The notes under the pieces are model-generated. The model had not been told where the DNA came from and made no database searches. It worked only from the letters and a program-made list of their open reading frames with translations. Shown in pieces: positions 3,376 through 6,011 of a stretch of DNA of 64,000 nt (position 1 is the stretch's first letter; each line of letters begins with the position of its first letter). Both the position numbers and the translations under genes were made by a program. The DNA is from Spirochaetae bacterium HGW-Spirochaetae-2 (lineage in GTDB: Bacteria; Spirochaetota; Spirochaetia; Sphaerochaetales; Sphaerochaetaceae), in assembly GCA_002839355.1 (NCBI GenBank), contig PGXW01000021.1, positions 1-64,000 of the forward strand, read 5' to 3'.

Positions 3376-3930
3376 CTAAGCCAGATCCAATTCCGGTGCG
3401 ATTTCGCGCATGCCTTCGATTGTAAGCTGTATGACCTGGTCGAGTTCCATGCCCACCATCTGCGAGCCCCGGGCAATCAGTTCCCTATCCACTCCGACAG
3501 AGAAACCCTTGGTCTTCCATTTCTTCTTCACCGATTTCACTTCCAGGTCCATGAGGCTTTTCGAAGGACGCATGAGAGCCGTGGCTGTGACCAGTCCTGT
3601 CAGTTCATCTATGGTGAACAGCACCTTTTCCATGGGATGGACCGGTTCGACATCGCTGCACAAGGTCCATCCGTGGGAAACGACCGCATGGATGATATCG
3701 TCGGATACCCCGGCGGTCGAGAGGAGTTCGGGAGCCTTCTTGCAGTGTTCGTCGGGATACTGCTCGTAATCGATATCGTGCAGGAGTCCTACAATGCCCC
3801 AATAGTCCACGTCGTGCCCCATTTCCCGGGCAAAGCGACGCATGACTGCTTCCACGGACAATGCATGCTTGTAGAGGCTGTCCGAGGAATTGTATTGCCT
3901 GTACAATTGAAGAGCTTCATTTCTGGTCAT
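3376..3930 (-). CDS. HD-domain phosphohydrolase
   Basis: A 184-residue HD-superfamily protein of the short, HDIG-related type found in many anaerobes. It shows H-ALSVEAVMR, then LLHDIDYEQYP carrying the HD dyad, and HAVVSHGW with another candidate metal ligand. Such proteins are metal-dependent phosphohydrolases, often of nucleotides, but the substrate is not predictable here. The ATG at 3930 follows GGAGG by five bases; an upstream in-frame start at 3984 would add 18 residues lacking family character. It shares no operon with neighbours. Confidence 0.8.
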   Translation of the reverse strand: MTRNEALQLYRQYNSSDSLYKHALSVEAVMRRFAREMGHDVDYWGIVGLLHDIDYEQYPDEHCKKAPELLSTAGVSDDIIHAVVSHGWTLCSDVEPVHPMEKVLFTIDELTGLVTATALMRPSKSLMDLEVKSVKKKWKTKGFSVGVDRELIARGSQMVGMELDQVIQLTIEGMREIAPELDLA

Positions 3931-4025
3931 CGTATCCTCCAAGGTCAAAAAAGTACCATACAAACCAATTTGTATCATCTGCACCGGTTTACAGCAATAT
4001 CTCCGGTAAAACTTTCCAATCCCCC

Positions 4026-4054
4026 TTTATCACATGACCTCTATATGGTATGAT
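4026..4054 (+). promoter_or_regulatory. Candidate promoter of the leader ORF-corA unit
   Basis: TATGAT at 4049-4054 is a good -10 box; 17 nt upstream lies TTTATC (4026-4031), a weak -35. Transcription would begin near 4061, giving a leader of nearly 200 nt before the corA ATG. Confidence 0.4.
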
Positions 4055-4113
4055 TTTTATGTCTCGGGCATTGCCGATATGGCGATGGATTCTTTTCACA
4101 CAAGGAGGATGCT

Positions 4114-4203
4114 ATGTCTACTTCAGACGATGGCGGGAGTATACGCTATCGCCCATCAAAAAAATACATTTCAGCGCTCCTCCCGAACCAAGCCAACGTG
4201 TAG
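4114..4203 (+). CDS. Short leader ORF upstream of corA
   Basis: A 29-codon ORF beginning MSTSDDGGSIRYRPSKKYIS and ending at the TAG at 4201. AAGGAGG with 5-nt spacing to its ATG is among the strongest ribosome binding sites in the window, so it is very likely translated. It ends 50 nt before corA and is followed by hairpin-forming sequence. Short ORFs controlling Mg2+ transporters are known (mgtL, mgtM in enterobacteria), but this peptide shows no relation to them. It may be a leader peptide or simply a small protein. Confidence 0.5.
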   Translation: MSTSDDGGSIRYRPSKKYISALLPNQANV

Positions 4204-4205
4204 TT

Positions 4206-4227
4206 CCAGCCCTGCCAGGGCTGCTGG
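4206..4227 (+). promoter_or_regulatory. Hairpin-forming sequence between leader ORF and corA
   Basis: AGCCCT-GCC-AGGGCT forms a compact hairpin at 4208-4222. An alternative pairing joins CCAGC (4206-4210) with GCTGG (4223-4227). The element begins three bases after the leader stop codon and lies before the corA ribosome binding site (GAGGAGGA at about 4243-4250), so ribosome position on the leader could change its folding. There is no T-run, so translational control is more likely than termination. Confidence 0.4.
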
Positions 4228-4253
4228 TTCCCGGGGAATGCCGAGGAGGAACC

Positions 4254-5282
4254 ATGATCACAATCCGAAACGATATAGCCAGCAGAATTCCAGGTGACAA
4301 CACATCTTCGGGTGGCTACACTTGGATCGATGCCCGAGAGATCACACGTGACGATATAACCGAATTGCAGGAAAACTACGCTATCAGCTCGGAACTTCTC
4401 GCGGATATTATGGACTTGGACGAACAAGCCCGTATCGAGAAGGAGGACGACTATGTAGTCCTTATCGTTCGACTTCCTGCTTTCGCGGATGATAGCCATG
4501 GTATCAACCAATATTGCGTTCCACTTGGCATTGTCATGATGAAGGATACCATCATCACCATTTGCCAGAGCGACAGCGTGATCCTCGAGGACTTCGCACG
4601 CAACCGGTTCCGGCAGTATCCGGTCCAGACGCAGGAAGGGTTTGTCATCAGTCTCATGGGGCGGGCGGCCATGGTCTTTATCCGGCTGTTGAAATACCTG
4701 AACAGGCAGAAGAACCTGATTGAAGAAGAATTGCATAAGTCTGTCCGCAATGACGAACTTATCCAATTGCTCTCCATACAGAAATCACTCGTATATTTCA
4801 CCACCAGCCTCACGACCAATGAAATCCTCCTGGAGAAATTGCAGAAGTCACCATATTTCCGCGTGAATACCGATGAAGAGCGGGAATTCCTGGAAGATAT
4901 CATCATCGACAACAAGCAGGCTATCGAGATGTCCAACATCTACTCGTCGATCCTCACCGGAACCATGGATGCCTTCGCTTCTGTTATTTCCAACAATCTG
5001 AGCATTATCATGCGGAGACTTACGGTCATTTCCATTGCATTCATGTTTCCGACCTTTCTCGTCGGCTATTACGGCATGAACCTGAAGCTTCCGTTCGAAG
5101 GGAATCCGTTCATGATGTACTGGATTATTGGATTAAGCCTTCTTGCCGGTTTTGGAAGCACCTATATACTGAGTGACAAGCGATCGAGAAAACGAGCGGA
5201 ACGGCACTTGGAATCGGCAAGGAAACGGCGGGAGAAACAACGGCGGACCAACCGCCGAAAAGGTCGCGTCCGGGAGGATTGA
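4254..5282 (+). CDS. corA: CorA-family divalent metal transporter
   Basis: A 342-residue CorA/MIT-family channel for Mg2+ or other divalent ions in the inner membrane. A long cytoplasmic alpha/beta and coiled-coil region covers residues 1-255. Two transmembrane helices lie at the C-terminus, with the signature YGMN at about 273-276 between them, followed by a strongly basic tail. The ATG at 4254 follows GAGGAGGA; longer upstream frames have no CorA character. A 29-codon leader ORF and hairpin precede it, suggesting regulated translation. Ion specificity (Mg, Co, Zn) cannot be read from sequence. Confidence 0.88.
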   Translation: MITIRNDIASRIPGDNTSSGGYTWIDAREITRDDITELQENYAISSELLADIMDLDEQARIEKEDDYVVLIVRLPAFADDSHGINQYCVPLGIVMMKDTIITICQSDSVILEDFARNRFRQYPVQTQEGFVISLMGRAAMVFIRLLKYLNRQKNLIEEELHKSVRNDELIQLLSIQKSLVYFTTSLTTNEILLEKLQKSPYFRVNTDEEREFLEDIIIDNKQAIEMSNIYSSILTGTMDAFASVISNNLSIIMRRLTVISIAFMFPTFLVGYYGMNLKLPFEGNPFMMYWIIGLSLLAGFGSTYILSDKRSRKRAERHLESARKRREKQRRTNRRKGRVRED

Positions 5283-5336
5283 CTGGACGTCGGGTTTCCT
5301 ATACATTGCCTCCAACCTCCGAGGGGTGGGGTGAAG

Positions 5337-6011
5337 ATGGAAGCTCTCTATTCGCTTTGCGATCGATTCTCCGAGTTTTCGGTTTCCAGCCAATGGCGCT
5401 CGCTCTTGGATTTGTATCTACTTATTGAAAAAGAAACTACAGAATTCCAGAAAACGTATGGTGTGGCATGTCCTCCAGGGTGCGGCACCTGTTGTGAGCA
5501 CTTTGTGCCCGAGTTGACAGACCTGGAGGCTTCCTTGATAGGAGCCTACTTGCTTTTCGTGAAGCAAGACCCTTCTGTGGTTGCGAGACTCGCCGCATTC
5601 GAAGCTTCCAGCGGCATGTGTCCACTCTATGATCCCGATTCGCCGTACCACTGCACCGTGTACCCCGTTCGAGGCATGATCTGCCGTCTGTTCGGAGCTT
5701 GTCCCTCGGACGACAAATTTGGAAATCCACTCTTCCGCAAGTGCAAATACAACACCAATGGGGATTCCCCTGCCTCGTTGGATGCCAGGGATTTTGGCAC
5801 AGATACCACCGATATCCCGACCATGCGGAAACTGTCCGTCCAATTCTCGGCTTTGGAACCGATTGCCGCTACACTGCCGATCGCAGATGCGCTCCTGCGG
5901 TCCTTCTCACGGTTGCAGTTTATCGCCGCACACATGGGTAGCGATTCTCATGACGATGACAATGGCGGCTCCGATCCTTTGGTTCCGACTCCTACACCCT
6001 TGGCTTCATGA
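5337..6011 (+). CDS. YkgJ-family cysteine-cluster protein
   Basis: About 224 residues with the YkgJ/CxxCxxCC metal-binding cluster: CPPGCGTCC near residues 46-54, then CPLYDPDSPYHCTVYPVRG, RLFGACPS and KCK further on. These cysteines are expected to bind zinc or an iron-sulfur cluster; the family's role is unknown. A GTG at 5331 is an alternative start two codons upstream, both after a GAGGGGTGGGG purine tract. The last 64 bases overlap the end of the oppositely oriented MFS gene. Confidence 0.8.
   Translation: MEALYSLCDRFSEFSVSSQWRSLLDLYLLIEKETTEFQKTYGVACPPGCGTCCEHFVPELTDLEASLIGAYLLFVKQDPSVVARLAAFEASSGMCPLYDPDSPYHCTVYPVRGMICRLFGACPSDDKFGNPLFRKCKYNTNGDSPASLDARDFGTDTTDIPTMRKLSVQFSALEPIAATLPIADALLRSFSRLQFIAAHMGSDSHDDDNGGSDPLVPTPTPLAS

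Follow-up and report, generated by a model that had tools for sequence, protein, structure and literature searches.

The corA gene of Spirochaetae bacterium HGW-Spirochaetae-2 is preceded by a short leader ORF with an acidic N-terminus, which is conserved across the Sphaerochaetaceae, and by RNA regions that can form alternative helices reaching the corA Shine–Dalgarno sequence (SD). We propose that these elements form a cis-acting translational switch through which the leader peptide controls synthesis of the Mg2+ importer CorA, a reading whose probability we put at about two in three. The window is the whole stretch of 64,000 nucleotides analysed here (contig PGXW01000021.1). A first-pass annotation of the window had noted a 29-codon ORF, 50 nt before corA and with the best ribosome binding site of its surroundings, followed by two short pairings and the corA ribosome binding site; both the ORF (4114-4203, with the SD AAGGAGG) and the corA ribosome binding site (AGGAGG, 4244-4249) are present as described. 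The features of the transcript start, the leader and the gene are as follows.

4046-4054, plus strand: extended -10 promoter element TGG-TATGAT (TGGTATGAT), based on the motif count in relatives; predicted transcript start at about 4061
4102-4108, plus strand: leader SD AAGGAGG, read from the sequence; pairs with 4173-4183 in the minimum-energy fold
4114-4203 including the stop, plus strand: leader ORF MSTSDDGGSIRYRPSKKYISALLPNQANV, 29 codons, with the acidic pair at residues 5-6
4254-5282, plus strand: corA (Pfam CorA PF01544, E 3.5e-52), with the YGMN motif read from the translation

The distance from the leader stop to the corA ATG (4254) is 50 nt. An ATG at 4050, which is in frame with corA and opens an ORF of 410 codons, was rejected as the corA start, as the relatives start at the equivalent of ATG 4254 with an SD. 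Of 68 non-redundant relatives, 60 have the motif TGNTANNNT at 15-110 nt 5' of the leader ATG; mononucleotide shuffling gives an expectation of 13.0, and a stretch of the same length within corA contains it in 3 of 68. Because this conserved extended -10 element sits upstream of the leader, the leader is probably part of the corA transcript, and a transcript starting after 4203, which the first-pass annotation had named as evidence against its own proposal, appears unlikely. Concerning the neighbouring genes, an HD-domain gene (PF01966) lies at 3376-3984 on the minus strand, divergent from the leader–corA transcript, and a gene for a CxxCxxCC putative zinc- or iron-chelating protein (PF03692) is found 3' of corA at 5331-6011 on the plus strand.

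The family search covered 139 genomes and found corA-type matches in 98; by a count of the list, close orthologues account for 95 and distant CorA genes for the rest. We sampled 93 of the 95 family genomes (all except G068 and G108), and collapsing duplicates gave 90 distinct upstream regions, with L070 retained for one of them; L104 and L126 were dropped for having no usable start. From the 90 regions, 68 representatives were taken for folding. All 90 of these Sphaerochaetaceae regions have a leader ORF with an SD and an acidic N-terminus. The count is a selected one, since the leader picker chooses, among candidates that contain one or more acidic residues, the one with the best score; the controls gauge that bias. 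Among the family loci, 90 of 90 reach a leader score of at least 9; the figure is 45 of 76 for other Spirochaetia loci, 0 of 30 for non-spirochaete corA loci (the class-level set is part of the matches listed, and the totals of 76 and 30 exclude the distant CorA loci L026-L031) and 1.5% for 1500 random places in the window. Chance as the origin of the leader signal was rejected on the basis of the random places and the non-spirochaete corA loci. The second, distant CorA-like gene of the window genome (L031, contig handle G000:C61, 23% identity) has no such leader. Other types of acidic leader are seen before the corA genes of Treponema and Spirochaetaceae (e.g. MDTDPGSSRCRK, MPDSDSKPSEPLSPHIRQPRRG and MDSGSSYPIRFL); loci with such leaders are L077, L080, L081, L083, L085, L086, L096, L098, L105 and L121, together with other Spirochaetia.

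The leaders of the family are 14-32 residues long and start with ATG, or with GTG in some relatives. An adjacent acidic pair lies within the first nine residues of 89 of the 90 leaders, and PLP within the first 20 residues of 68; the window leader has the acidic pair and carries RYRP where most relatives have PLP. The N-termini fall into the types MDEGGSxNPLP, MDDGSYPLP and MSxxDDGGSxxPLP, as in the series MDEGGSINPLP, MDDGSYPLP, MSTVDDGGSINPLP and MSTSDDGGSIRYRP, and the C-termini are variable. The same division is seen in pN/pS: the MDEGG clade has a value of 0.10 over codons 2-11, the MDDGS clade 0.20 over codons 2-9 vs 0.78 over codons 10-15, and the clade that includes the window 0.53 over codons 2-9 vs 0.92 over codons 13-20. 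The N-terminal codons of the two MS clades give 0.53 and 0.61, and the C-terminal codons 0.68-0.92. These substitution patterns indicate that selection acts on the N-terminus of the peptide. A long functional small protein was discarded as an explanation, conservation being limited to the N-terminus. The conservation of the leader in relatives had itself been named as a point on which the first-pass proposal could fail, and the proposal survives it.

Four regions of the leader RNA can be distinguished across the family. Region 1 consists of the leader SD, the start and the first codons; region 2 is the 3' part of the leader (just past the stop in the shortest leaders); region 3 lies between the leader stop and the corA SD; and region 4 is the corA SD. 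In the window they are located as follows, together with a small hairpin.

4102-4108 plus 4109-4113, plus strand: region 1 of the switch in the window species, the leader SD and the bases after it; pairs with region 2
4174-4190, plus strand: region 2 (GCGCUCCUCCCGAACCA), in the 3' part of the leader; pairs with region 1 or region 3 through overlapping bases
4207-4223 (arms 4207-4213 and 4217-4223), plus strand: hairpin CAGCCCU-GCC-AGGGCUG, apical, between regions 2 and 3, genus-specific
4225-4241, plus strand: region 3 (UGGUUCCCGGGGAAUGC); partner of region 2 in the ON fold, with its bases 4225-4231 pairing instead with the corA SD region in the OFF fold
4244-4254, plus strand: region 4, comprising the corA SD AGGAGG, GGAACC and the first base (A) of the ATG; hidden by 4225-4231 in the OFF fold

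The predicted pairings in the window are 4104-4113 with 4173-4183 (1:2), 4174-4190 with 4225-4241 (2:3) and 4225-4231 with 4248-4254 (3:4). By themselves they are only suggestive: the whole-region fold has a z of -1.82 (11 of 200 shuffles), and the duplexes are weak against shuffles (1:2 p 0.18, 2:3 p 0.07, 3:4 p 0.75). It is the relatives that lend them significance. When the regions are fixed and 200 shuffles are made for each of the 68 representatives, the mean z of the duplexes is -1.81 for 2:3, -1.46 for 1:2 and -0.57 for 3:4, and +0.37 for the control duplex 1:3; the 3:4 duplex is thus weak overall.

In the MDEGG clade, region 1 is formed by the Asp-Glu-Gly codons: GAAGGC pairs with GCCUUC in region 2, which also pairs with GAAGGC in region 3, and region 3 ends 11-16 nt before the corA ATG (26 MDEGG loci). 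Helix 2:3 of this clade (26 sequences) has 85.5% of its cells paired and 21 double-change cells; its covariation score is reached by 0 of 500 shuffles, and each of the six slid versions falls below it. Coding constrains helix 1:2, which is 85.4% paired; 17 to 19 of 500 shuffles match it on three measures, and more do so on the remaining two. Group A comprises 10 sequences, the window among them; its helix 2:3 has 68.1% of cells paired and 11 double-change cells, with a covariation score reached in 0 of 500 shuffles. The two-part shape of its ON hairpin is kept while the bases change (GGCAUCC/GGAUGCC in L009, GACCCUCC/GGGAGGGUC in L003). The OFF helix (3:4) of group A has 84.8% of cells paired and, being nearly invariant, no covariation. 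Neither helix of clade B (14 sequences) exceeds shuffles in the covariation tests; both are above all slid versions in the percentage paired. Viewed sequence by sequence, the SD-hiding arm of the MDDGS clade and of others varies between species yet stays complementary. Alignment A4, which is misaligned in some rows, was left out of the covariation counts, and the OFF arms of its clade are given per sequence. As judged from the alignments, helix 2:3 covaries in two of the three clades tested.

The small hairpin between the leader stop and corA had been the centre of the first-pass annotation, which drew AGCCCT/AGGGCT (4208-4213/4217-4222) and CCAGC/GCTGG (4206-4210/4223-4227) as mutually exclusive pairings. 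Both pairings exist; they are not mutually exclusive and make up one hairpin in every computed state, the CAGCCCU/AGGGCUG stem being predicted in both the ON and the OFF fold. The hairpin lies in the loop between the true arms of the switch, and among the ten group A loci its sequence is found only in L001 and L002, the latter being the nearest relative. The region from the leader stop to corA folds no better than shuffles in 64 relatives (mean z -0.18). As a single hairpin, unconserved and within an inner region that is not significant, 4207-4223 was rejected as the switch. The conservation and covariation that the annotation had proposed to look for are seen in the leader and in helix 2:3, respectively.

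For every leader codon, each representative was folded with a 29-nt block standing in for the ribosome, and the energetic cost of exposing the corA SD up to the ATG was calculated; the competition between the helices was computed at equilibrium. Across the 68 representatives, a block on codons 2, 4 and 6 (numbering from 0) lowers this cost by 1.81 kcal/mol on average compared with no ribosome. The mean benefit of the same block is -0.53 kcal/mol after dinucleotide shuffling downstream of codon 11 and 0.90 kcal/mol after synonymous recoding of codons 2-10. A benefit above 2 kcal/mol is seen in 32 of 68 real sequences vs 2% of shuffled and 25% of recoded ones, and for 48 of 68 the real benefit is greater than that of at least 11 of 12 shuffles. 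For leaders of the MDEGG clade, opening often becomes abruptly costlier by about codon 9, when the ribosome is past the acidic pair and reaching PLP; examples are L150 (2.8 with the ribosome at the start vs 10.1 with none) and L160 (2.6 vs 10.0). The cost in the window is 6.8 with no ribosome, 4.1-4.3 with the ribosome on codons 1-2 and 7.9-8.6 on codons 20-27; in the window species the benefit is mainly at the very first codons, though the acidic pair is at codons 5-6. In the constrained folding, the effect has the opposite direction in L138, L139, L182, L156, L007 and L033, among others, and is not clear in L005, L008, L018, L021, L034 and L180. In several loci with a leader stop near corA (e.g. 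L150, L151 and L160), a ribosome on the last leader codons reopens the corA SD, which would blur the switch unless termination is fast. In these models, then, the position of the ribosome on the leader alters the predicted access to the corA SD in many lineages. A translated leader coupled to RNA folding before an Mg2+ transporter gene, as suggested in the first-pass annotation, is well supported by the comparison, which gives a conserved leader and alternative helices that reach the corA SD.

By sequence comparison, the leader RNA is capable of two folds that exclude each other, and the proposed switch would work as follows. In the OFF state, region 1 would pair with region 2, and region 3 would sequester the corA SD (region 4); in the ON state, regions 2 and 3 would form a large hairpin that stops next to the corA SD, which would stay accessible. 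When Mg2+ is low, the acidic pair, with PLP where it is present, would slow or destabilise the ribosome on the first codons; the ribosome there would cover region 1, helix 2:3 would form and corA would be translated. At sufficient Mg2+, the ribosome would move on and either expose region 1 or occupy region 2, and helix 3:4 would shut the corA SD. We infer that the leader is translated, that Mg2+ is the signal, that the regulation runs in this direction and that the ribosome dwells long enough on the first codons. Were destabilised ribosomes to leave the RNA instead of lingering, nothing would cover region 1 and the model would predict OFF.

The probable signal is Mg2+, on three grounds that fall short of proof. 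According to extracts of PMC11552253, PMC11282234 and PMC8092293, acidic residues near the N-terminus, often with proline, impair the translation of MgtL and mgtQ; high Mg2+ is described as suppressing such translation abortion in an extract of PMC9718836, and these sources state that bL31 counteracts abortion in enterobacteria. The window genome encodes bL31. Intrinsic ribosome destabilization was reportedly first described in Chadani 2017. In the genomes G000-G022 (23), a CorA orthologue is present in 13 and MgtE in 12, both are present only in G000 and G021, and no genome has neither; the two importers are complementary across this set. The third ground is that MgtE genes of the family have acidic/proline leaders of their own, as described below. 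A known riboswitch was discarded as the explanation, as Rfam gives no match in the window and the M-box (RF00380) is found in 0 of 37 relatives; control genomes match in 2 of 14.

The same leader and RNA switch may instead respond to another signal, namely the general status of translation (EF-P, an EttA-type factor, the initiation rate or an inhibitor), as in ermC-type attenuation. The 1:2, 2:3 and 3:4 geometry would equally suit stalling that is induced at early codons; PLP occurs in 68 of 90 leaders; EF-P is encoded in 21 of 21 relatives; and E. coli EttA is reported to modulate the translation of acidic N-termini, including that of MgtL (PMC11282234, in extract). However, the leaders precede corA and, as other acidic/proline peptides, mgtE, and these genes have only Mg2+ import in common; we regard a signal other than Mg2+ as unlikely.

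It is also rather improbable that the output is Rho-dependent or other transcription termination, with folds that expose or hide a Rho site and not the corA SD, as for corA of Salmonella and E. coli and mgtA of Salmonella. The E. coli and Salmonella corA leaders act via Rho, as stated in PMC11552253, and the lack of an SD switch in the MgtE leaders of the relatives makes another output possible; against this, the corA SD is where the competing helices end, either on it or next to it (region 3 of the 26 MDEGG loci stops 11-16 nt short of the ATG), and predicted SD access changes with the position on the leader in many lineages. Plain translational coupling, in which leader translation raises corA translation and the peptide senses nothing, would fit the strong leader SD, the 50 nt spacing in the window and the opening of structure by ribosomes on the leader (in some loci also at its end), but it is very improbable given that the N-terminal amino acids are conserved and the C-terminal half is not, and that ribosomes late on the leader close the SD in several lineages (L001, L004, L009 and L032).

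Leaders are also found before the other importer gene. Acidic/proline leaders with a score of at least 9 precede the MgtE genes of the family in 17 of 32 distinct upstream regions (e.g. MESADPGPSRNAFLRKAF, MEAGSSRLFADSDPVPD and MDADPGSCRGRIM), and MDADPGS, the start of an MgtE leader, also opens the Treponema corA leader L081. The mgtE loci with acidic/proline leaders are of several types and comprise L239, L240, L241, L243, L270, L271, L274, L277, L280, L282-L284, L286 and L287. Folding was carried out for 20 of the 32 upstream regions (score of at least 8, two left out), and a benefit above 2 kcal/mol was seen in only 1 of 20. The MgtE leaders thus show no SD switch, so that either their output differs or their starts are misplaced, and the claim of an SD switch is confined to corA. 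A wider reading, to which we give somewhat less than even odds, is that acidic/proline leaders control whichever Mg2+ importer, CorA or MgtE, is used throughout the spirochaetes; the ribosome would be the Mg2+ sensor, the first codons would serve both as destabilising peptide and as pairing arm, and the arrangement would have arisen, or been kept, independently of the enterobacterial mgtL, corL and mgtQ.

To our knowledge, leaders that read Mg2+ through the stability of the ribosome are known only from enterobacteria. No report of a spirochaete corA or mgtE leader was found in the open-licence literature; an mgtQ-like ORF is reported in Brucella in an extract of PMC8092293. A conserved spirochaete family before two unrelated importers would, if true, suggest a widely reused sensing principle, and it would explain the regulation of Mg2+ import in organisms with no detected M-box. 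The family also offers about 90 natural variants with which the required features of peptide and RNA can be tested.

In ermC-type attenuators, holding a ribosome at the early codons of the leader causes three helices to rearrange, which frees a downstream SD; the gene and the signal are different from those considered here, where there is no link to antibiotics. The corL/corA system of E. coli and Salmonella is similar in having a leader ORF and two alternative RNA structures before corA, and in E. coli it responds to intracellular Mg2+. It differs in that translation of corL lowers corA via Rho and that the peptide has fewer acidic and proline residues and a UUG start in E. coli (PMC11552253, as excerpted), whereas the spirochaete leader is acidic, starts with ATG (GTG in some relatives) and has the SD as its predicted target. 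The mgtL leader of mgtA (E. coli and Salmonella) shares the acidic and proline-containing N-terminus and the position before an Mg2+ transporter gene, and ribosomes of E. coli drop off more readily at its EPDP when Mg2+ is low; its output is Rho-dependent transcription termination, in contrast to the predicted corA SD access here, and its peptide sequence differs (extracts of PMC11282234 and PMC11552253). The view of the first-pass annotation that the peptide is not like the known ones does not hold at the level of kind, the N-terminal acidic pair, mostly followed by PLP, being comparable to the EPDP of MgtL and to Asp2 and Glu5 of mgtQ. The mgtQ ORF before mgtB of Salmonella is, as described in PMC8092293, a short ORF with a strong SD (AGGAGG) and acidic residues near its N-terminus, located before an Mg2+ transporter gene; stems 1:2 and 3:4 compete with 2:3, stem 3:4 hides the transporter SD, and the output is translational, as is predicted here. 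In that system, mgtQ is located between mgtC and mgtB, is 8 codons long, carries Asp2 and Glu5, and serves the transporter MgtB; the spirochaete leaders have 14-32 residues, mostly with an adjacent acidic pair and PLP, and precede the gene of a CorA channel. We make no claim of common descent; likened to the published description of mgtQ, the spirochaete leader would best be read as working by the mgtQ scheme with a peptide of the MgtL/mgtQ type.
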